Assembly (NCBI GenBank): GCA_023248545.1
Contig: JAHFEF010000007.1
Coordinates: 1-54,813 of the forward strand
Direction of reading: 5' to 3'
DNA from: Myxococcales bacterium
GTDB taxonomy: Bacteria; Myxococcota; UBA727; JABDBI01
DNA length: 54,813 nucleotides
Positions 7-29,958 of the stretch are shown in pieces. Below the pieces are notes generated by a model. That model was not told the DNA's origin and ran no database searches. It saw nothing but the letters and a program-made list of their open reading frames with translations. Numbering within the stretch: position 1 is the first letter of the stretch; every line of letters starts with the position of its first letter. Made by a program: the position numbers and the translations under genes.

Positions 7-1515
7 TTATTGGCACTGACCAATTCCCTGATTAGGCGCGGAGCCTTGGTAGCAGGTTTTTCCTGATGTACAAGCAGCTTGGCTATTATTGCCTAGGACG
101 CAGCCTAGACTGCCGCATTGTGGTGTGCATCCGCCGCAAATGCTGCCGGCCGCATTGCAAATACACTGCCCATTGGAACAAGTGTCGGAATTGCCGCTAC
201 AGACTTTTCCGCATCCACCGCAGTTATTGATGTCAGTGCTGGTATTTACGCAGGTTGAAGAACATTGGGTCTGGCCCAGCGGGCACGATGAACCGGCCGT
301 GTTGCTTGACCATAAAGGCATGCGTACATTGCTATAGATGACGAGGTTGCCATCGTTTTGTAGGATGAGAGTGTCTCCCGGGTTGCCGTTTGTGTTTGTT
401 GCGAACGCAGGAGAATTAATATTGTAAACCACGAAATTTCCATCCGTTTGCAGGTATGCGCTTCCATATGCTCCGATATTGGACGTATTGGAGCTAAAAA
501 TTGCTTGGCAACTAGATGAAGGGCAATTGATAAAGCTGTTTGGTATCGTGGTTTTGTAAAGCACGAGATTGCCATCGATTTGTAGAATCAGTTCATAGAC
601 ACCATTTTGGGATGTGATCGCAGAGCCTGGGACGAGAGATGGTATGCCTGCACCCTGTTGTGAGGGAGGTATGGCAGTGCTTTGGAGAGTCGAATTTGAG
701 CCAACTGCTTGGCATCCGCCAGCCCAGCATTGTTGACCATTTGAACACACGTTTCCGCATGCGCCGCAGTTATTGGGGTCGCTAGAGAGGAAAAGACATT
801 CGCCGGAACATGAGGTATAGCCGTTGGGGCAAGGCCAATTAGCTCCGCTATTAATACCAATAGTAGCCCCGCCATCAAGACTAGCACTAAGGACCATGCA
901 GTCTGTAAAATAATCGCCTGGGATAGCGCCTGGGTCTCCAGCCGAAATGAACACACCGCTATAGTAGCGGTTACATGAATTTATTGATCCTGAATGGCCT
1001 GAACAAGCCGAGTTACAATCGCCACTGCAGTTGCCAGGTTCATTTACACATCCACCAAAGGCCGTTGATCCATCCATACATAGACACCCGCAATACCAAG
1101 TAATCCCCGAACACTGAACAAGGTCATACGGTGGCGATCCTGCCCAACTAAAGTCTGACGAAACGCAGACGCCTGCACCGTTACTGGTGGCCTGACACAG
1201 AGAGGAGCCGTTGCCATTCGCATTTAAGGTACATACGTTGCCACACGCCCCACAGTTATTGGTAGTTAGAGTGCCGGAGTTGTATGTACCCACGGTGAGA
1301 TCTATACAGCTTCCATTGCAACATCCCGGCTGTGTCCCACCGCAGACATTCCCCTGGCTTCCACAATTATTCGGGTCGCTTTGGTACAAGGCGTTTGCAC
1401 CACTATTGGCCGCAAGGTTACCGGTTTTGCTTCCATAGTTGGAACTACAACCAAATGATGTGAAGATGATGCTTGAAAATATTAGGCCAAGCGCGATACT
1501 TGCTTGAGTGCCCAT
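7..1515 (-). CDS. Lipoprotein with bulb-type lectin domain and Cys-rich modules
   Basis: Predicted surface lipoprotein of 502 aa. The N-terminus is a lipoprotein signal peptide with a TSFGC lipobox (Cys23). A bulb-type (GNA-like, mannose-binding) lectin domain lies at about residues 298-405. It has all three QxDxNxVxY sugar-binding motifs, starting at Gln312, Gln356 and Gln386. Repeated Cys-rich modules of the type NNCGACGNVC occur at about 48-70, 87-95, 249-270 and 430-450; such modules are common in myxobacterial surface proteins. I chose the ATG at 1515 because a GGGGGA ribosome-binding site precedes it and it starts the signal peptide; an upstream in-frame ATG would add 26 residues. The likely role is binding mannose-type glycans or mediating adhesion, which is inferred from the domain. 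Confidence 0.8.
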   Translation of the reverse strand: MGTQASIALGLIFSSIIFTSFGCSSNYGSKTGNLAANSGANALYQSDPNNCGSQGNVCGGTQPGCCNGSCIDLTVGTYNSGTLTTNNCGACGNVCTLNANGNGSSLCQATSNGAGVCVSSDFSWAGSPPYDLVQCSGITWYCGCLCMDGSTAFGGCVNEPGNCSGDCNSACSGHSGSINSCNRYYSGVFISAGDPGAIPGDYFTDCMVLSASLDGGATIGINSGANWPCPNGYTSCSGECLFLSSDPNNCGACGNVCSNGQQCWAGGCQAVGSNSTLQSTAIPPSQQGAGIPSLVPGSAITSQNGVYELILQIDGNLVLYKTTIPNSFINCPSSSCQAIFSSNTSNIGAYGSAYLQTDGNFVVYNINSPAFATNTNGNPGDTLILQNDGNLVIYSNVRMPLWSSNTAGSSCPLGQTQCSSTCVNTSTDINNCGGCGKVCSGNSDTCSNGQCICNAAGSICGGCTPQCGSLGCVLGNNSQAACTSGKTCYQGSAPNQGIGQCQ

Positions 1516-1671
1516 AATTCCCCCAATGTTGGTAGATAGCAACCAACTCATTGAATCGCCATGAAATCGGGGGAATAGGACGCTTAAAAGCAAACTGTGG
1601 GTTGGTTGGCGGCTGTTATAGGGAAGGCGATCGAGTCATAGCATCTCTGCATTGGTCAGAAACGAGGCCCA

Positions 1672-2678: not shown

Positions 2679-4379
<1,701 letters not shown>

Positions 4380-4676
4380 TTACAGGTTAATTACGCCCAA
4401 CAGGTCATCTTCTTTGAGGAGCAGGTAAGACTCATTGTTGAGTTTAATTTCGGTTTCGGCATATTTCGCGAACAACACGCGGTCTCCGGGTTTTACGGAC
4501 ACGGGCCTGACAGTGCCATTGTCTAAAACTTTACCGGAACCCACAGCGACAACTTCGCCTTCGAGGGGCTTTTCTTTGGCGCTATCTGGGATAAAAAGAC
4601 CACCTTTGGTTTTGTTATCACCATCCATACGTTTGACCAAGACACGATCATAGAGGGGCTTGAGCTGAGTAGACAT
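4380..4676 (-). CDS. groES: Co-chaperonin GroES (Hsp10)
   Basis: Co-chaperonin of 98 aa that caps the GroEL ring as a heptamer. It shows the '[12 protein letters not shown]' start, the mobile loop with '[16 protein letters not shown]', and the '[19 protein letters not shown]' core. The ATG at 4676 is preceded by AAGGAG at ideal spacing. It is the first gene of groES-groEL, transcribed from a sigma-70-like promoter at 4710-4737. No CIRCE operator (TTAGCACTC inverted repeat) was seen upstream, so HrcA control is not supported here. Confidence 0.98.
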
Positions 4677-4709
4677 AGGTTCTCCTTTGTGAACTTTGAA
4701 TGTCAGTTC

Positions 4710-4787: not shown

Positions 4788-5363
4788 ATGCCTATTCCTG
4801 TACAGCCCCCTCCTCGTTCGATGAGCGCACAAACACTCGATGTGCTCAACAGTGCTGTTGAGATGAACCGTGAAACATTGGAAATTGCCCACAACTCGAA
4901 CGACAGGCTGGCTTTTCAAGAACAGCAGATCCGCTGTGCAGGCAACCAAGTGGAGCACATTGATAAACAAACCGATCGAGCGGACATACAAGCAGGCAAA
5001 GTGGACTCCTGTTGCGGTTATGGATTTTGGCATTGGTTGAAAATTCGATGTTGTTGCATGGGCGGCGATGCTGTGCGGATTCGAGAAAGTAATCATGCGG
5101 AGCTTGAACGGCGAGAAGCATTGGCACGCGAGCCCTTTGCTCCTCCCGCCCCCCCATTGCCAGTGGTTGTGGTTTCTAACGATCCCATCGATCAGGCAAT
5201 TGATGTATTAGAGCATCAAGTCGAAGAACTAAAAGAAGATGCGCTGGTCAAAAAGCGCGAATTAGCCCTTCAGAATACGATGCTTGATGTGCTTGTCGCA
5301 CAGACCCGAGCAACCGGCCAGCATGTGCAACGTGTCACACGCTATGAAAGACAGATAGATTAG
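4788..5363 (+). CDS. SNAP-25-like protein with two SNARE motifs and Cys-rich linker
   Basis: This 191-aa protein resembles eukaryotic Qbc-SNAREs of the SNAP-25/23 family. Helix 1 (about residues 16-72) aligns without gaps to SNAP-25 from memory: zero-layer Gln44 matches Gln53, and Ile48, Val55, Ile58 and Ala65 fill later layers. Two cysteines (75-76, CCG) lie 31 residues after Gln44, exactly as Cys84 follows Gln53 in SNAP-25. CCC at 88-90 extends the palmitoylation-like cluster. Helix 2 (132-190) has Ile138, Leu141, Val145, Leu148, Ala152, Leu159, zero-layer Gln162 (ALQN), Leu166, Leu169, Val180 and Val183. The two glutamines are 118 residues apart (121 in SNAP-25). There is no signal peptide. 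A GTG at 4689 would add 33 residues but overlaps the groES promoter, so I prefer the ATG at 4788. A generic coiled coil is the alternative. Confidence 0.72.
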   Translation: MPIPVQPPPRSMSAQTLDVLNSAVEMNRETLEIAHNSNDRLAFQEQQIRCAGNQVEHIDKQTDRADIQAGKVDSCCGYGFWHWLKIRCCCMGGDAVRIRESNHAELERREALAREPFAPPAPPLPVVVVSNDPIDQAIDVLEHQVEELKEDALVKKRELALQNTMLDVLVAQTRATGQHVQRVTRYERQID

Positions 5364-5364
5364 A

Positions 5365-5462
5365 AACCTCACCCCTAACCCCTCTCCACCCTGTGGAGAG
5401 GGGAATTAAACCTGGTTTTGAAGTCCCTCTCCACAGGGTGGAGAGGGATTTAGGGTGAGGTT
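5365..5462. repeat. Long palindromic REP-like element
   Basis: Two arms, about 5365-5404 and 5424-5462, form an inverted repeat: CCTCACCCCTAACCCCTCTCC on one side and GGAGAGGGATTTAGGGTGAGG on the other. Each arm itself holds a small hairpin (CTCTCCACCCTGTGGAGAG). Related copies lie at 41204-41261 and, inside a coding frame, at 46945-46997. It fills the gap between the SNARE-like gene and the OTU-kinase gene and may act as a transcription attenuator. Confidence 0.8.
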
Positions 5463-5501
5463 CATTGACCAGTCTGTAATTATTAGGCAGCTTGTTCAAC
5501 C

Positions 5502-7082
5502 ATGAAAGCTGTTGTTTTAATTCTGGTTTTCTGTCTGTTTCCAGCTGGCGCGAGTATTGCGCAGCCAAAGCCTTATCGATTTGGTTTTATTAAACTCGTG
5601 TCTCGGTTGTCTCAGTTGGGCTCCAAGGCGCCCCTGTGGCTAGGCTTGCTCACACGGTTCACGGCCAATCACCGAGGAATCGTTCCGATTTCAGGTGAGA
5701 ACAACGATTGTTTTTTTCATGCGCTGCAGGCTGCCGGAATTAACCTCAACCGTCAGCAGGTGACTCAGTATTTGAGGCAATTGCGTGATGGGCCCAGCCG
5801 CCTCAGAGACATTGCCAGACAGGAACTTCTGTCAACCGATGAAGAGCTTAGCGACGCGATGAATGGGCTTCGAGACTTTATTCGCCAGTTTCCAGGAGAA
5901 TCCATTGAAGAATTTGATCCTGATTTGTTCAATTGGTTTATTTTACGCCTCGAACAAGGTGCACCCATGCCATTTCAACGTGACGGTATGGGCGGCGTTG
6001 ACTTCCTGGAAATATTAGGCCGGCAATTTAACTTCGATATTAGAATTATTGAGTCTACCGATGGCCATGTAATTCATGACTTTAGATGGCCGTTGAGTAC
6101 AAGGAGACGTCGGGTCACGCTGCGCTATAGTTCCTCAGAAGTTGGGCATTTTGATCTGGTGTTGGATAAAGCACTGCCGATTCCAGCTACTAATCAGGAT
6201 CAACTCTCATTTCAATGGCCGAATATAATTGGTTGGGGTTCTTCTGATTCTTGTGGTTCTTCTGCGAAATATCAAATTGTTCGGCAGATTGGCTATGGAA
6301 ATTTTGCCCGTGTCTACTTGGTTCATGACCGTGGTTCGTGCTTTGCGGCGAAGGTAATTGACAAGCTGGGATATTCCGGGGATCCCGAGGTGCTGTTTGA
6401 GGAGGCCGAAAACGAAATCGCTTCTCTCAAAGAATGCAATTGTCCATTTCTTCCGGCCTACATCGGGTCTGATATGAGACGTGAGCCATTGTCTGTAATC
6501 ATTATCATGGGTTATGCCCCTGGAGAAAATTTGCGAGAATATTGGTCTTCTGGAAAATATGTGCCTTCTGAGGATAACGCTATGCAAATCTGGGTGCAGT
6601 TATTGCAGCTATTAGAGCATATGCATTCCAAAAAAATTATGCATCGCGATGTGAAGATAGAAAATATGATCCTAGGACCAGATGGGTTGGTAAGATTGGT
6701 GGATTTTGGTTTTGCACGAACATTTCCAACCGAAAATGAGTCAATGGCAGATCAACTTATGGGAACCGTAGAGTATGTAGCTCCAGAAATGATAGGCCGT
6801 CATTGGTATGATGGTTCCGTCGATATCTGGGCATCAGGGGTAACTTTGTATGTCTTAGCCACTGGACATATGCCTTTTAATGGACGGGATCCAGCCCAGA
6901 CTTTCAGAGCCATCCTAAATTTTCCACACGTGCGTATTCCCAACAATGAACTGGGTTTAATCATTCGTCAAATATTCGTAGAGAGAACCGCCCGACCAAC
7001 AGCAAGCCAATTGCTACAATTGTCCTACGTTCAAAAATACATTCCGAAAACAAACACCACCGAAGATCCTCCGCAGGAATAA
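5502..7082 (+). CDS. Secreted OTU cysteine protease / Ser-Thr protein kinase fusion
   Basis: A 526-aa protein with a Sec signal peptide (residues 1-20, cleavage near SIA-QP) and two eukaryote-like domains. Residues about 58-222 form an OTU-type cysteine protease domain, a fold that cleaves ubiquitin. The nucleophile is Cys70 in NNDCFFHAL and the catalytic His is His216 in GHFDLVL. Residues about 257-512 form a complete Hanks-type kinase: Gly-rich loop GYGNFARV (264-271), Lys284, HRD 381-383 with Asn388, DFG 401-403, and APE 427-429. All catalytic residues are present. The Asp three residues before the OTU Cys is Asn67, which is a variation. The gene lies 138 bases after the SNARE-like gene and 38 bases before a membrane-protein gene. 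It could act as an exported effector on host ubiquitin conjugates; export beyond the periplasm is not shown. Confidence 0.85.
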   Translation: MKAVVLILVFCLFPAGASIAQPKPYRFGFIKLVSRLSQLGSKAPLWLGLLTRFTANHRGIVPISGENNDCFFHALQAAGINLNRQQVTQYLRQLRDGPSRLRDIARQELLSTDEELSDAMNGLRDFIRQFPGESIEEFDPDLFNWFILRLEQGAPMPFQRDGMGGVDFLEILGRQFNFDIRIIESTDGHVIHDFRWPLSTRRRRVTLRYSSSEVGHFDLVLDKALPIPATNQDQLSFQWPNIIGWGSSDSCGSSAKYQIVRQIGYGNFARVYLVHDRGSCFAAKVIDKLGYSGDPEVLFEEAENEIASLKECNCPFLPAYIGSDMRREPLSVIIIMGYAPGENLREYWSSGKYVPSEDNAMQIWVQLLQLLEHMHSKKIMHRDVKIENMILGPDGLVRLVDFGFARTFPTENESMADQLMGTVEYVAPEMIGRHWYDGSVDIWASGVTLYVLATGHMPFNGRDPAQTFRAILNFPHVRIPNNELGLIIRQIFVERTARPTASQLLQLSYVQKYIPKTNTTEDPPQE

Positions 7083-7120: not shown

Positions 7121-7720
7121 ATGGCTCGGTGTGCAAAGCTTTTATTTTTGGTCCTGCTGCTCAACCTACCTGCTCTTGCAGAACCATTCTATTCAGCCAG
7201 CCAAATCGCTGTGACAACCTATGTATTTGCAATCGCAGCCCTGGATGCTGTTACCAGTGGCTATACCTATCACACCCAAGAAGTACTCTTGGCGAATAGC
7301 CCAAACACAGAAGAGCGAGATTATGTTTTGATCGCCCTGCCCACTGCTATTGCTGTCTATGGCATTTCGGCGATCACCCTGTTGCCCGCCGCTATTTTAA
7401 GAACCGTGAAAATTATAAACACCGAACAGGGCACCCGTGCATTCATCGGCCTTGAGGCAACAGCGGCATTTTTTGCTGCAATTGGCCTCATTGCCAGCGG
7501 CGTCGCATTCGGATTTGAACAAAACGACAGTGCAGCCGTCGGGATCGTCAACCAAACACACTATGAACGCCCGAAAGAATTTCAACCGATGCTCGCACTC
7601 AGCATTGTCAGTTCGGTCGCCAATCTTTTGGCCGTGTTAATCAATGTCCTCCAAATAGGTGTACCCGGAGAGCCCGTCCTCGTACCGACGCATCAGCCTG
7701 GCGGACTCCTCGAATGTTAG
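7121..7720 (+). CDS. Hypothetical membrane protein, signal peptide plus four TM helices
   Basis: Unrecognised protein of 199 aa. An N-terminal signal peptide (LLFLVLLLNLPALA) is followed by four hydrophobic helices at about 27-45, 68-95, 107-130 and 155-177, with short loops. The ATG at 7121 has an AGAGGT ribosome-binding site and lies 38 bases after the OTU-kinase stop, so the two are probably co-transcribed. The 3' end overlaps the convergent speA gene by 84 bases; the C-terminal 28 residues are therefore antisense to speA and the least certain part. A role with the OTU-kinase protein is only suggested by position. Confidence 0.6.
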   Translation: MARCAKLLFLVLLLNLPALAEPFYSASQIAVTTYVFAIAALDAVTSGYTYHTQEVLLANSPNTEERDYVLIALPTAIAVYGISAITLLPAAILRTVKIINTEQGTRAFIGLEATAAFFAAIGLIASGVAFGFEQNDSAAVGIVNQTHYERPKEFQPMLALSIVSSVANLLAVLINVLQIGVPGEPVLVPTHQPGGLLEC

Positions 7721-9553
7721 ATGTCCTTCACGCACGGCGCTTTCAGCCATGTTGCGAATGCGCTTTAATAAATCCAGGCGGTCATATTCTACATAGCTTA
7801 AGACTTCACTGACCGTATCACCTTGAACCACGTGGTCCAAGCGATATTTGCCATCGGATCGGAGCGACACGTGGACAGCGTTCGTGTCGCCGAACAAGTT
7901 ATGCAAATCCCCCATGATTTCTTGATAAGCGCCAACCAAAAACGCACCCAAATAATACGGCTTGCCACTGGGATGGTGCAATCTAATTGTCGGCTTGACG
8001 TCTTGTAGGTCAATAAACTGGTCGAGTTTTCCGTCGGAGTCACAGCTTAAATCGGCGATAATGGCTTCTTGCGTGGGTTGCTCATCCAACCGGTGCAGCG
8101 GCGCAATGGGGAACAAATGCCCAATGGCCCAAGAATCCGGCAGCGACTGAAAGATCGAAAAATTGCAATAATACGTATCGCTGAGATTTTTATTCAAGCC
8201 TTGCAGGTCTTCAGGGATATAACTTTCGGTGCTGACCGCCGATTGAATGGCTTGGCACGCTGCCCAATATAAATCGTCTATTTTTGCTTTGGTTTCTAGG
8301 TCAATCACACCGTGGCTAAACAGCGTGACGCTTTCTTCTTTGGCTGCTAAAATATCGTTGTAGGCTTCTTGAAAATTTTTCTTGCTGACAACAGATTGGT
8401 AAGCCTCCCAAATCGTGTGCAAAACCGTGTGGTCGTCATCGATGGGCGCCGTGAGGGCTTGTTTGAAATTGCCGACCATCTCGTTGATGCCCAGCACATT
8501 GAATACCAACATGGCATGGTGCGCTACCAGTGCACGGCCAGACTCGGAAACAATGGTCGGGTGCGGCATGTCATTCTCGTCACAGATTTCTTGTGTCGTA
8601 GAAATAATATCATTGGCGTATTCCTGCGTCGAATAGTTCATGGATGAGTGAAAATCGCTGCGACTACCGTCATAATCAACCGCCAAACCACCCCCAATAT
8701 CGAGGTGACTCAAATTCACGCAGCCCATGCGCCTCAAGTTGCAATACAAGTGCGCGGCTTCTCGTGCCGCGTTCTTGATGGCTCTGATCGACGTAATTTG
8801 AGAACCAATATGAAAGTGTAGCAGTTCTAAGCAGCCTAAGATGTCTTCTTTTTTAAGAAGCTCCACAGCCTCGACAATTTCGCGCGCAGTCAGCCCGAAT
8901 TTGCTGCGATCCCCTGAACTATCGGCCCAACGGCCCTTTCCCTTGCTGGATAATTTCGCGCGAATCCCGATGTGAGGCACAAGATTCATACGCTTTGCAA
9001 TGGCAATAATTTGTGGCAATTCAGCAAAGCGATCTAAGATTAAAAACGGTTTTAGACCCAGTCGTTGGGCGTCCAATGCTGTCTCAATATATTCTGCGTC
9101 TTTATAACCGTTGCACAATAAAAGCGAGTCTGCGTCATCTAACAACGCCATGGCGACGAGCAATTCAGGCTTCGAGCCAGACTCCAAACCCAAACCATAG
9201 GGCTTGCCCTGACGCACCAACTCTTCGACCACGTGTCTTTGTTGGTTGACTTTGATGGGCATCACACACCGATAAGTTGATTTGTAGCCGTATTCTCGAA
9301 TGCTTTTTCGAAAGCTTTCAGAGATCACTTGCACCCGACTGCCCAAAATATCGTTAAAGCGCACCAATAAGGGTGGTTGAATGCCTCTCAAACATAGATC
9401 ATCGACCAACTCTTTCAGATCAATGCAAGACTCGCTTTTACCCGTCGGATCGCAGGTCAAATGGCCCTTGGCGTTGATCGAAAAATACGGCGTTCCCCAG
9501 CGAGAAATCAGGTACTGGTCTAGGCTGTCTTGCACGGTCCAATTGCTTTTCAT
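7637..9553 (-). CDS. speA: Biosynthetic arginine decarboxylase (SpeA)
   Basis: PLP-dependent enzyme converting arginine to agmatine, the first step of the agmatine route to putrescine. It is about 638 aa, close to the E. coli enzyme. The Orn/Arg decarboxylase barrel shows the PLP lysine in MPIKVNQQ (about residue 100), 'GLGLESGSKPEL', 'HFHIGSQI', 'DIGGGLAVDYDGS' and 'SESGRALVAHHA'. An upstream in-frame ATG (9565) would add four residues. I prefer 9553 because GAGATG lies just before it. It is divergent from the S55 peptidase gene, with 26 bases between start codons. A LysE/ArgO-type exporter elsewhere in the window could also handle basic amino acids. Confidence 0.95.
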   Translation of the reverse strand: MKSNWTVQDSLDQYLISRWGTPYFSINAKGHLTCDPTGKSESCIDLKELVDDLCLRGIQPPLLVRFNDILGSRVQVISESFRKSIREYGYKSTYRCVMPIKVNQQRHVVEELVRQGKPYGLGLESGSKPELLVAMALLDDADSLLLCNGYKDAEYIETALDAQRLGLKPFLILDRFAELPQIIAIAKRMNLVPHIGIRAKLSSKGKGRWADSSGDRSKFGLTAREIVEAVELLKKEDILGCLELLHFHIGSQITSIRAIKNAAREAAHLYCNLRRMGCVNLSHLDIGGGLAVDYDGSRSDFHSSMNYSTQEYANDIISTTQEICDENDMPHPTIVSESGRALVAHHAMLVFNVLGINEMVGNFKQALTAPIDDDHTVLHTIWEAYQSVVSKKNFQEAYNDILAAKEESVTLFSHGVIDLETKAKIDDLYWAACQAIQSAVSTESYIPEDLQGLNKNLSDTYYCNFSIFQSLPDSWAIGHLFPIAPLHRLDEQPTQEAIIADLSCDSDGKLDQFIDLQDVKPTIRLHHPSGKPYYLGAFLVGAYQEIMGDLHNLFGDTNAVHVSLRSDGKYRLDHVVQGDTVSEVLSYVEYDRLDLLKRIRNMAESAVREGHLTFEESARLMRRYEDGLSGYTYLEDID

Positions 9554-9579
9554 CGGGCATCTCATATAGACTTATATAC

Positions 9580-26901: not shown

Positions 26902-27381
26902 TTATTGGCTAGCACTCGCAGCATTGGTGTCGTTAGGCCTCCGCAGAGTGTCAAATATTGTCCGAGTACCTTTAGGCGGCGGGCGGGGAGCTCCCCTCTG
27001 CAATAGTTGCCAGTAAGTAACTGGAACCTCAAAACCACCGCCGAACCTAACCGGACTATGACTCCTCACTGCAACTGTCCGCCTTTCTGGAACTGTGCGT
27101 TGGAGTTCACAACGATTTATCAGCTCACTGATTTCCCATTTTCTTCTGCAATTGGGGCACGAAATTTGTGTTTTACCTGCTGAATCAGTCACTAATCTTT
27201 GAAGACAGCTTCGACATACATTATGGACGCATTCACAAACCTGCCGCAGATCTTCAGTTCCAAAGCAGATCTGACATTGTTCACACTTATCATCACTTTC
27301 ATCGTCAGAATCCGATTGAGCGAATGCACAGACGCTCACGATGAGCGATAATAAAAGAACCCATAGTGCTTTTCTCTTCAT
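26902..27381 (-). CDS. Exported RING-HC finger protein
   Basis: A 159-aa protein with a signal peptide (residues 1-21) and an acidic linker. A complete C3HC4 RING finger follows: Cys36, Cys39, Cys51, His53, Cys56, Cys59, Cys75 and Cys78, with spacing C-x2-C-x11-C-x-H-x2-C-x2-C-x15-C-x2-C. RING fingers recruit ubiquitin-charged E2 enzymes in eukaryotes. The C-terminal 70 residues are basic and Pro-rich without a known domain. The gene lies 69 bases downstream of an NHL-propeller gene on the same strand and is probably co-transcribed. In eukaryotic TRIM-NHL ligases both domains sit in one protein. A bacterial E3-like effector is a plausible role; E2 binding is unproven. Confidence 0.8.
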   Translation of the reverse strand: MKRKALWVLLLSLIVSVCAFAQSDSDDESDDKCEQCQICFGTEDLRQVCECVHNVCRSCLQRLVTDSAGKTQISCPNCRRKWEISELINRCELQRTVPERRTVAVRSHSPVRFGGGFEVPVTYWQLLQRGAPRPPPKGTRTIFDTLRRPNDTNAASASQ

Positions 27382-29253: not shown

Positions 29254-29281
29254 AATGGGGATGGTTTACGGGTGATCACGC
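29254..29281 (+). repeat. trpS 3'-end repeat R1, copy C
   Basis: Matches copy A over 28 bases with one difference (GATGGTTTACG for GATGATTTACG). It leads directly into the intact SRPBCC-RING gene, whose GTG start overlaps the former trpS stop. This copy probably preserves the original junction. Confidence 0.85.
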
Positions 29282-29958
29282 TTGTCAGCGCTTTTGCATT
29301 CCTGCTGCCATATGTGGGAGAACCGCCAGAAATCGAGTTCACCCCAGAACAGCAAACACAAATTGCCCAAGGGGATTTGGTTTATCTCTCTGATAACAGT
29401 ACCGATGAGGTTATGGGGAGTACCATTGCATTTCGCGTGAACGCTTCGCCCACAGATATTTGGAGCGTGCTCAGTGACTGGTCCTATGAGATTGGTTTTT
29501 GGCGTGTCAAACAGGTTGTGGGTGACCCGGCGCAAAGTGATGTAGTCCGCCATGGCAAGCTTAGGCTGAGTAGCCTTTGCGCCAACGGGATCTTTGGAAT
29601 CGGCAGTTTCAGGACTCGCGATATGGCTGAAACAATCCATAGAAATTTACGAGTCGTAGTTGCCGGACGTTTATATACAAAGTTTGACCCTGAACCACTT
29701 AGTCCCCTGATGATTGGAGGTCTTCTTGGGGGAAGTATGATGGTGATCATGGCGGTAATCTGTTCCAGGTCTCCATCCAGAGTGATGCCCGTTGTCTATC
29801 CAGGAAGAGGTCAATTTAATACCGGTTGTCCAATGTGCTTTATGGTATCGGATGAACAATTAGGTCACCTTTCTTGTGGTCATACATATCATTTGGGTTG
29901 TATTCAAGAATGGCTTAAAAAAACTAAAGGCGTGATTTGTCCGCACTGCGGGACATGA
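29272..29958 (+). CDS. Membrane-anchored RING-H2 protein with N-terminal SRPBCC-like part
   Basis: A 228-aa protein in three parts. Residues 22-135 resemble the first half of an SRPBCC/START-type lipid-binding domain (TIAFRVNASPTDIWSVLSDW). Residues 146-164 are one transmembrane helix (LMIGGLLGGSMMVIMAVIC). Residues 186-226 are a complete RING-H2 finger: Cys186, Cys189, Cys202, His204, His207, Cys210, Cys223 and Cys226. Membrane RING-H2 proteins are a standard class of eukaryotic ubiquitin ligases. The lipid-binding domain seems to be cut short at the membrane helix, so the gene may be a fusion. It starts with GTG inside a trpS-end repeat. It is separate in sequence from the RING-HC protein 2 kb away, which suggests two acquisitions. 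Confidence 0.78.
   Translation: MITLVSAFAFLLPYVGEPPEIEFTPEQQTQIAQGDLVYLSDNSTDEVMGSTIAFRVNASPTDIWSVLSDWSYEIGFWRVKQVVGDPAQSDVVRHGKLRLSSLCANGIFGIGSFRTRDMAETIHRNLRVVVAGRLYTKFDPEPLSPLMIGGLLGGSMMVIMAVICSRSPSRVMPVVYPGRGQFNTGCPMCFMVSDEQLGHLSCGHTYHLGCIQEWLKKTKGVICPHCGT

Follow-up and report, generated by a model that had tools for sequence, protein, structure and literature searches.

A candidate SNAP-25-like, Qbc-SNARE-type protein encoded in a Myxococcota genome

We have analysed a stretch of 54,813 nucleotides (the window) from a bacterium of the Myxococcota. It contains an open reading frame (ORF) for a protein of 191 amino acids (the window protein), and this ORF is confirmed as real, with the layout that had been described for it from the DNA: two heptad-layered helices, glutamines in the registers of SNAP-25 and a Cys-Cys-Gly (CCG) after helix 1 are all present. 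When the protein is combined in a joint profile with its one full-length relative, from a genome designated G004, the match to SNAP-25 is more than chance. Taken alone, the SNARE likeness of the window protein is not beyond chance and it is not recognised as a SNARE, so that the SNAP-25-like interpretation as a whole is partly supported. Judged from its sequence the protein is probably a fast-evolving, injected effector of Qbc-SNARE type, with two helices in the SNAP-25 register and a cysteine-rich linker, that would act within the cytoplasm of eukaryotic host cells.

The gene and its layout

The gene and the elements of its product are as follows.

4788..5363, forward strand: gene for a SNAP-25-like (Qbc-SNARE-type) protein of 191 amino acids, assigned from the ORF, the G004 homologue and the joint profile
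4821..5012, forward strand: first SNARE-type helix, residues 12-75; a predicted helix in the SNAP-25 helix-1 layer register, the matching stretch of the relative hitting the Pfam family V-SNARE_C
4917..4919, forward strand: zero-layer Q44, also Gln in the G004 relative and in SNAP-25
5010..5018, forward strand: Cys75-Cys76-Gly77, paired by hhalign with the CCG of SNAP-25; Gly alone is kept in the relative
5049..5057, forward strand: Cys88-Cys89-Cys90, preceded by aromatic and basic residues and predicted to be an S-acylation cluster; the CCC is common to the relative
5184..5357, forward strand: second SNARE-type helix, residues 133-190; a predicted helix for which hhalign prefers SNAP-25 helix 2
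5271..5273, forward strand: zero-layer Q162, His in the G004 relative

The ORF starts with ATG; upstream of this the frame continues without a stop as far as a GTG at 4689. The ATG is favoured because the relative likewise begins M-P-I. The GC content of the gene is 50.3%, compared with 48.1% for the window.

The zero-layer glutamines Q44 and Q162 lie 118 residues apart, as stated in the original prediction; in the fetched SNAP-25 sequence used as yardstick (P0003) they are Q53 and Q174, with a spacing of 121. The separation of 31 residues from the zero layer to the CCG (44 to 75) is identical in SNAP-25, where Q53 is followed by CCG at 84-86. Each helix of the window protein fills 11 of its 15 non-zero layers in the SNAP-25 register, and shifting the register by 1 to 3 leaves 1-8 of 15 filled (wide residue set, i.e. 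A/V/I/L/M/F/W/Y/C). Using a strict set (V/I/L/M/F) six layers of helix 1 are filled, a number tied by register -3. The relative has 10/15 and 13/15 non-zero layers filled (wide set), and in its helix 1 register 0 again ties with register -3. Layers -4, -3 and -2 of helix 1 are S, G and T in SNAP-25, T, A and S in the window protein and T, G and T in the relative, while helix 2 of the window protein has polar residues at two layers, Lys at -2 and Glu at +7. Between the two bacterial proteins 23 of 32 layer columns are similar, compared with 38 of 74 other helix columns, a difference (one-sided Fisher p 0.039) that comes from a weak, after-the-fact comparison.

Low-confidence structural models (pLDDT 66 for the window protein and 63 for the relative) place helices at residues 12-75, 79-114 and 133-190, and at 35-97, 103-142 and 158-215 of the relative in its own numbering. 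Neither model matched a SNARE fold. Each chain is thus predicted to carry two SNARE-length helices with a linker between them, and by eye no transmembrane stretch is seen in either protein. The two layered helices, the lack of a transmembrane stretch and the cysteines after helix 1 are features shared with SNAP-25 and SNAP-29.

The cysteines of the window protein are at positions 50, 75, 76, 88, 89 and 90. The relative has a single cysteine cluster, CCC at 113-115 in its own numbering, which corresponds to the site of 88-90 shifted by one. In both proteins the CCC is preceded by an aromatic and basic stretch, FWHWLKIR and LWYRFKKAL respectively. In SNAP-25 the four cysteines directly following helix 1 are palmitoylated, and hydrophobic and positively charged residues assist in this, according to the sections available of PMC6422494. 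By analogy the linker cysteines of the bacterial proteins may be S-acylated. In the window protein the shared CCC follows Q44 at a distance of 44-46 residues, later than the CCG at 31-32, which is a difference from SNAP-25. The Cys cluster is therefore conserved only in part; of CCG 75-77 the relative keeps the glycine, but it has the CCC 12 residues further on.

Comparison with SNARE proteins

The window protein alone gives no indication of a SNARE. None is found among its Pfam matches at E <= 1, or in a search of solved structures, and NCBIfam and PHROGs return neither a SNARE nor a function. Its best Pfam match, DUF7858 (E 0.0015), lies below the cut-off of that family and was rejected. An HMM of SNAP-25 scores the protein at 5.0 bits, ranking it 12th of 2,364 reported from a background of 4,667 open frames. 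Neither the window protein (at E 1) nor the relative (at E 5) has the Pfam SNAP-25 family (PF00835) among its matches, and the window protein is therefore not filed in the SNAP-25 subfamily proper.

Such results might be expected of an ordinary bacterial coiled coil that is unrelated to SNAREs, in which the heptads and chance glutamines mimic the layers. Consistent with this, the 5.0 bits are equalled by 66 of 500 heptad-preserving shuffles, from which the protein is thus indistinguishable, and Pfam, NCBIfam and PHROGs assign it no function. Moreover IncA of Chlamydia, which was long called SNARE-like, has a fold that is not that of a SNARE, as described in part of PMC6588587. The relative and the joint profile each place SNAREs first, however, and the SNAP-25 hypothesis had been named ahead of any search. 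Together with the shuffling of the joint profile described below, this makes an ordinary coiled coil quite unlikely in our estimation.

The case for a SNARE is carried by the one relative in G004. V-SNARE_C is a Pfam family that comprises vesicle Q-SNAREs, and helix 1 of this protein passes its model with 28.0 bits (E 2.8e-6), the cut-off being 27.1; the same match is precomputed for the protein in the protein database. In a search of solved structures (E <= 10) SNAREs make up 17 of its 19 matches, 16 of them SNAP-25 and one Vti1-like, the best E being 0.024. The SNAP-25 HMM gives it 19.0 bits, a score attained by none of 500 shuffles (the best reaching 18.7), and when 123 fetched records, with 4,667 distinct open frames, are scored it ranks first with E 2.2e-4, the next being at 0.28. 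When 16 genomes of the order were searched with the SNAP-25 profile nothing was found; because direct scoring finds the relative, this reflects the first look of that search, at least for G004.

The profile made from the two members places SNAP-25 and SNAP-29 at ranks 1-7 among solved structures, and in 9 of the 13 matches overall (best E 0.025). The best of these alignments follows a single path across both helices. Aligned by hhalign with 17 vertebrate SNAP-25 sequences the joint profile gives a probability of 79-81% (E 1.3e-5 to 1.6e-5), pairing Q44 with Q53, CCG with CCG and Q162 with Q174. With query and template exchanged the probability is 65% (E 5.9e-5), and the reversed profile scores 19.2 compared with 40.3 for the true orientation. 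Shuffles that kept the heptad position of every profile column reached the score of 40.27 in 0 of 400 and 1 of 1,640 cases (1/2,040 in all), which is the further argument against an ordinary coiled coil. Scored separately, helix 2 prefers SNAP-25 helix 2 (19.2, against 9.5 for helix 1), and helix 1 gives 22.1 with SNAP-25 helix 2 and 20.3 with helix 1. Concerning the ranking of SNAREs over generic coiled coils, the original prediction is thus upheld by the joint profile and by the relative, but not by the window protein alone, for which no SNARE is returned.

The window protein resembles SNAP-25 in having a zero-layer glutamine in both helices, with a spacing of 118 against 121, and in the joint-profile match. 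It differs in being unrecognised when taken alone, in lacking a PF00835 match, and in that the helix-2 zero layer of its relative is His. The zero-layer Gln is accordingly kept at Q44 but not at Q162. The loss of this second glutamine, the restriction of the family to two members and the weak pairwise scores would all be compatible with a convergent mimic, i.e. a bacterial coiled coil not derived from any eukaryotic SNARE, in which selection has produced a likeness to Q-SNARE helices and which still binds host SNAREs. The LegC proteins of Legionella are described as convergent Q-SNARE mimics in the text available of PMC7542358 and PMC9776023. On the other hand the match is collinear over helix 1, the linker CCG and helix 2, and convergence need not yield such an order and spacing. 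We regard a convergent origin as unlikely, and prefer a Qbc-SNARE-type effector.

Control searches set limits on individual matches. Two coiled-coil proteins of genome G007 gave 0 and 2 matches to solved structures, none a SNARE, and two scrambled versions of the relative gave 1 and 42, again without a SNARE. Since one scrambled relative reached 0.052 with beta-lactamases, a single solved-structure E of about 0.02 proves little. V-SNARE_C exceeds its cut-off in 2 of 195 genomes of the phylum, G004 and G094; in the latter the model (PF12352) passes in a low-complexity stretch with stops, so that it gives false positives. A PF12352 match in G007 lies inside a cytidylate-kinase-like gene (named by eye), and was taken as chance. 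The SNARE family PF05739 has matches at E <= 1 in three of eight genomes of the bacterial family, none over the cut-off; these are noise, because 10 of 14 control genomes match too.

The relative and the gene neighbourhood

The relative is the sole full-length match among 58 surrounding genomes (E 7.4e-25, 32% identity over residues 5-190). G004 belongs to the same family as the window genome but to another genus, and the protein is V4534_05385 at NCBI, from a Myxococcota metagenome-assembled genome (MAG). Weak matches (E < 0.1) in G013, G057, G035, G030 and G023 cover parts of the protein only and were dropped. In the protein database the window protein alone finds one sequence, itself, and the alignment finds two, the window protein and the relative. 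A pattern search of genome contigs for further members gave 101 patterned stretches and no confirmed relative, and a profile run over 195 genomes of the phylum has matches in two, both already in the profile. The family is thus known from two members only. No match to the gene was found in G001, which is of the same genus as the window genome and 99% complete; speA was not found there either by these searches.

The following genes surround the SNARE-type gene in the window.

2679-4355: groEL (PF00118, E 1.5e-75)
4380..4676, reverse strand: groES, a divergent neighbour, from its ORF and named by eye
5502..7082, forward strand: eukaryotic-like Ser/Thr kinase (PF00069, E 7.3e-46), its N terminus hydrophobic and signal-like
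7637..9565, reverse strand: speA-type decarboxylase gene, named by eye; 84% identical in G004

The gene had been placed between groES and an OTU-kinase gene. The groES and the kinase domain are borne out, but an OTU domain is not listed by Pfam at E <= 1. Between its signal-like N terminus and the kinase domain, the product of 5502-7082 has a region that looks OTU protease-like by eye, judged from a motif.

In both genomes the SNARE-type gene is directed towards the 3′ end of speA, so that the one full-length relative has a matching place beside that gene. Beyond speA both have a SpoIVB-like gene (56% identical) and lpdA (81%). The window differs from G004 by insertion of the kinase gene and a gene for a small membrane protein between the SNARE-type gene and speA. 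A different gene follows speA in G007, and in G006 the contig ends there. With 32% identity, compared with 84% for speA and 81% for lpdA, the SNARE-type gene evolves much faster than its neighbours.

We note that the inserted gene at 7121-7720 (forward strand) encodes a small multi-spanning membrane protein of no family (best Pfam match EMP70, E 0.22), and that its 3′ end overlaps speA. Between the SNARE-type and kinase genes, at 5365-5463, there is an imperfect palindrome (CCTCACCC...CTCTCC with its reverse complement), an arm of which occurs nowhere else in the window (2 matches, with 0.02 expected).

A eukaryotic gene might have been misplaced into the bacterial bin at assembly, and the assembly does consist of 41 contigs. 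Yet the ORF is intronless and lies between groES and bacterial genes on a contig of 91 kb, its GC content is like that of its neighbours, and in another genome the related gene is likewise next to speA, on a contig of 929 kb. Contamination is most improbable, and the view that the gene context argues against it stands.

Genome setting, known mimics and proposed function

The window genome comprises 1.78 Mb. The contig from which the window is taken carries an ATP/ADP translocase gene at 77885-79318 (PF03219, E 5.6e-188), a family present in 7 of 8 genomes of the bacterial family and 0 of 14 control genomes. ATP/ADP translocases of this type are known from obligate intracellular bacteria. FHIPEP is found in 5 of the 8 family genomes; the G004 copy is SctV (above cut-off) and not FlhA, and in the window genome two pieces at contig ends favour SctV, i.e. 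type III secretion. The VirB4-type family PF03135 is present in 1 of the 8 and was not found in the window genome. This Myxococcota bacterium of reduced genome is likely to live inside eukaryotic cells. An injected effector is plausible because of the translocase, the SctV-type secretion genes and other eukaryote-like genes in the window.

Bacterial SNARE mimics are already known from Legionella and Chlamydia, and as described in the portions available of the papers cited below they resemble single Q-SNARE helices or IncA. Among the literature matches listed, which are open-licence papers, no title reports a bacterial Qbc-SNARE. A paper by Neveu and colleagues deals with SNAREs in Heimdallarchaeota, and reportedly discusses Legionellales also.

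Like the window protein, LseA of Legionella resembles a Q-SNARE and has a site for lipidation in the host, which in the window protein is a predicted one. From the text available (PMC7542358) it has a single Qc helix related to syntaxin-6 and a C-terminal CAAX for prenylation, and is delivered by Dot/Icm. By contrast the window protein has two helices and linker cysteines, and comes from the Myxococcota and from a genome without a PF03135 match. LegC2, LegC3 and LegC7 (Ylf) are also bacterial Q-SNARE-like coiled coils, and the LegC proteins act on host VAMP4; compared by description, they differ in not being presented as a SNAP-25-like pair of helices in the parts available of PMC7542358 and PMC9776023. 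The original prediction held that the known mimics carry single SNARE-like coiled coils only. This is contradicted by IncA of Chlamydia, which in the available portions of PMC2265411 and PMC2756591 has two SNARE-like motifs per protein and belongs to obligate intracellular bacteria that possess type III secretion, points in which it would resemble the present case. Unlike the window protein, again compared by description, IncA is anchored through a bilobed transmembrane region, and its solved four-helix fold is not that of a SNARE (PMC6588587, in part).

The Qbc-SNARE-type effector that we favour may work as follows. The protein would be exported from the bacterium by type III secretion, SctV-type gene pieces being found in the genome. 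Host acyltransferases would palmitoylate the linker cysteines, anchoring the protein in a host membrane as for SNAP-25. A four-helix bundle could then form in which the two helices of the protein serve as the Qb and Qc strands, with a syntaxin (Qa) and a VAMP (R) of the host as the others. In this way the fusion of vesicles at the membrane that encloses the bacterium might be redirected or blocked. The outcome we favour is that host syntaxin near the bacterium would be occupied in place of the host's own Qbc-SNARE. The polar helix-2 layers incline us slightly towards a blocking role.

A stronger proposal is that the gene encodes a complete bacterial Qbc-SNARE acquired from a eukaryote by an intracellular lineage of Myxococcota, a single injected protein with both t-SNARE helices and a host-acylated linker that would replace SNAP-25 or SNAP-29 of the host in the host's fusion complexes. 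We consider this possible but hold it only tentatively. If the Qbc-SNARE-type reading is true, two of the fusion machine's four helices would come together from one protein of SNAP-25 type, and a third, unrelated lineage (Myxococcota with ATP/ADP translocase) would have reached the same host target. As a small soluble protein, the window protein lends itself to direct study of the control of membrane fusion.

Some further observations were made on the window and on genomes of the same family. The genomes of G003 and G005 are approximately 0.3 and 0.5 Mb in size at 87% and 91% completeness, and G003 has no ATP/ADP translocase match. In the window the gene at 29272-29958 (forward strand) encodes a C-terminal RING-H2 finger (PF13639, E 4.6e-8, over the cut-off), which is a eukaryotic-like E3 ligase domain. 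The short protein encoded at 26902-27381 (reverse strand) combines a signal-like N terminus with a RING-like finger, and is below all Pfam cut-offs (best E 1.1e-4). The gene at 7-1593 (reverse strand) codes for a protein that is rich in cysteine and looks secreted; it has Stig1-like repeats (PF04885, E 8.4e-7) and, weakly matched, a stretch of B-lectin type. In G004 a nucleoside phosphatase of the GDA1/CD39 family (PF01150, E 1.1e-49), whose N terminus is signal-like, is encoded at 3115-4179 of locus L026 (reverse strand), about 8.6 kb from the SNARE-type gene of that genome.
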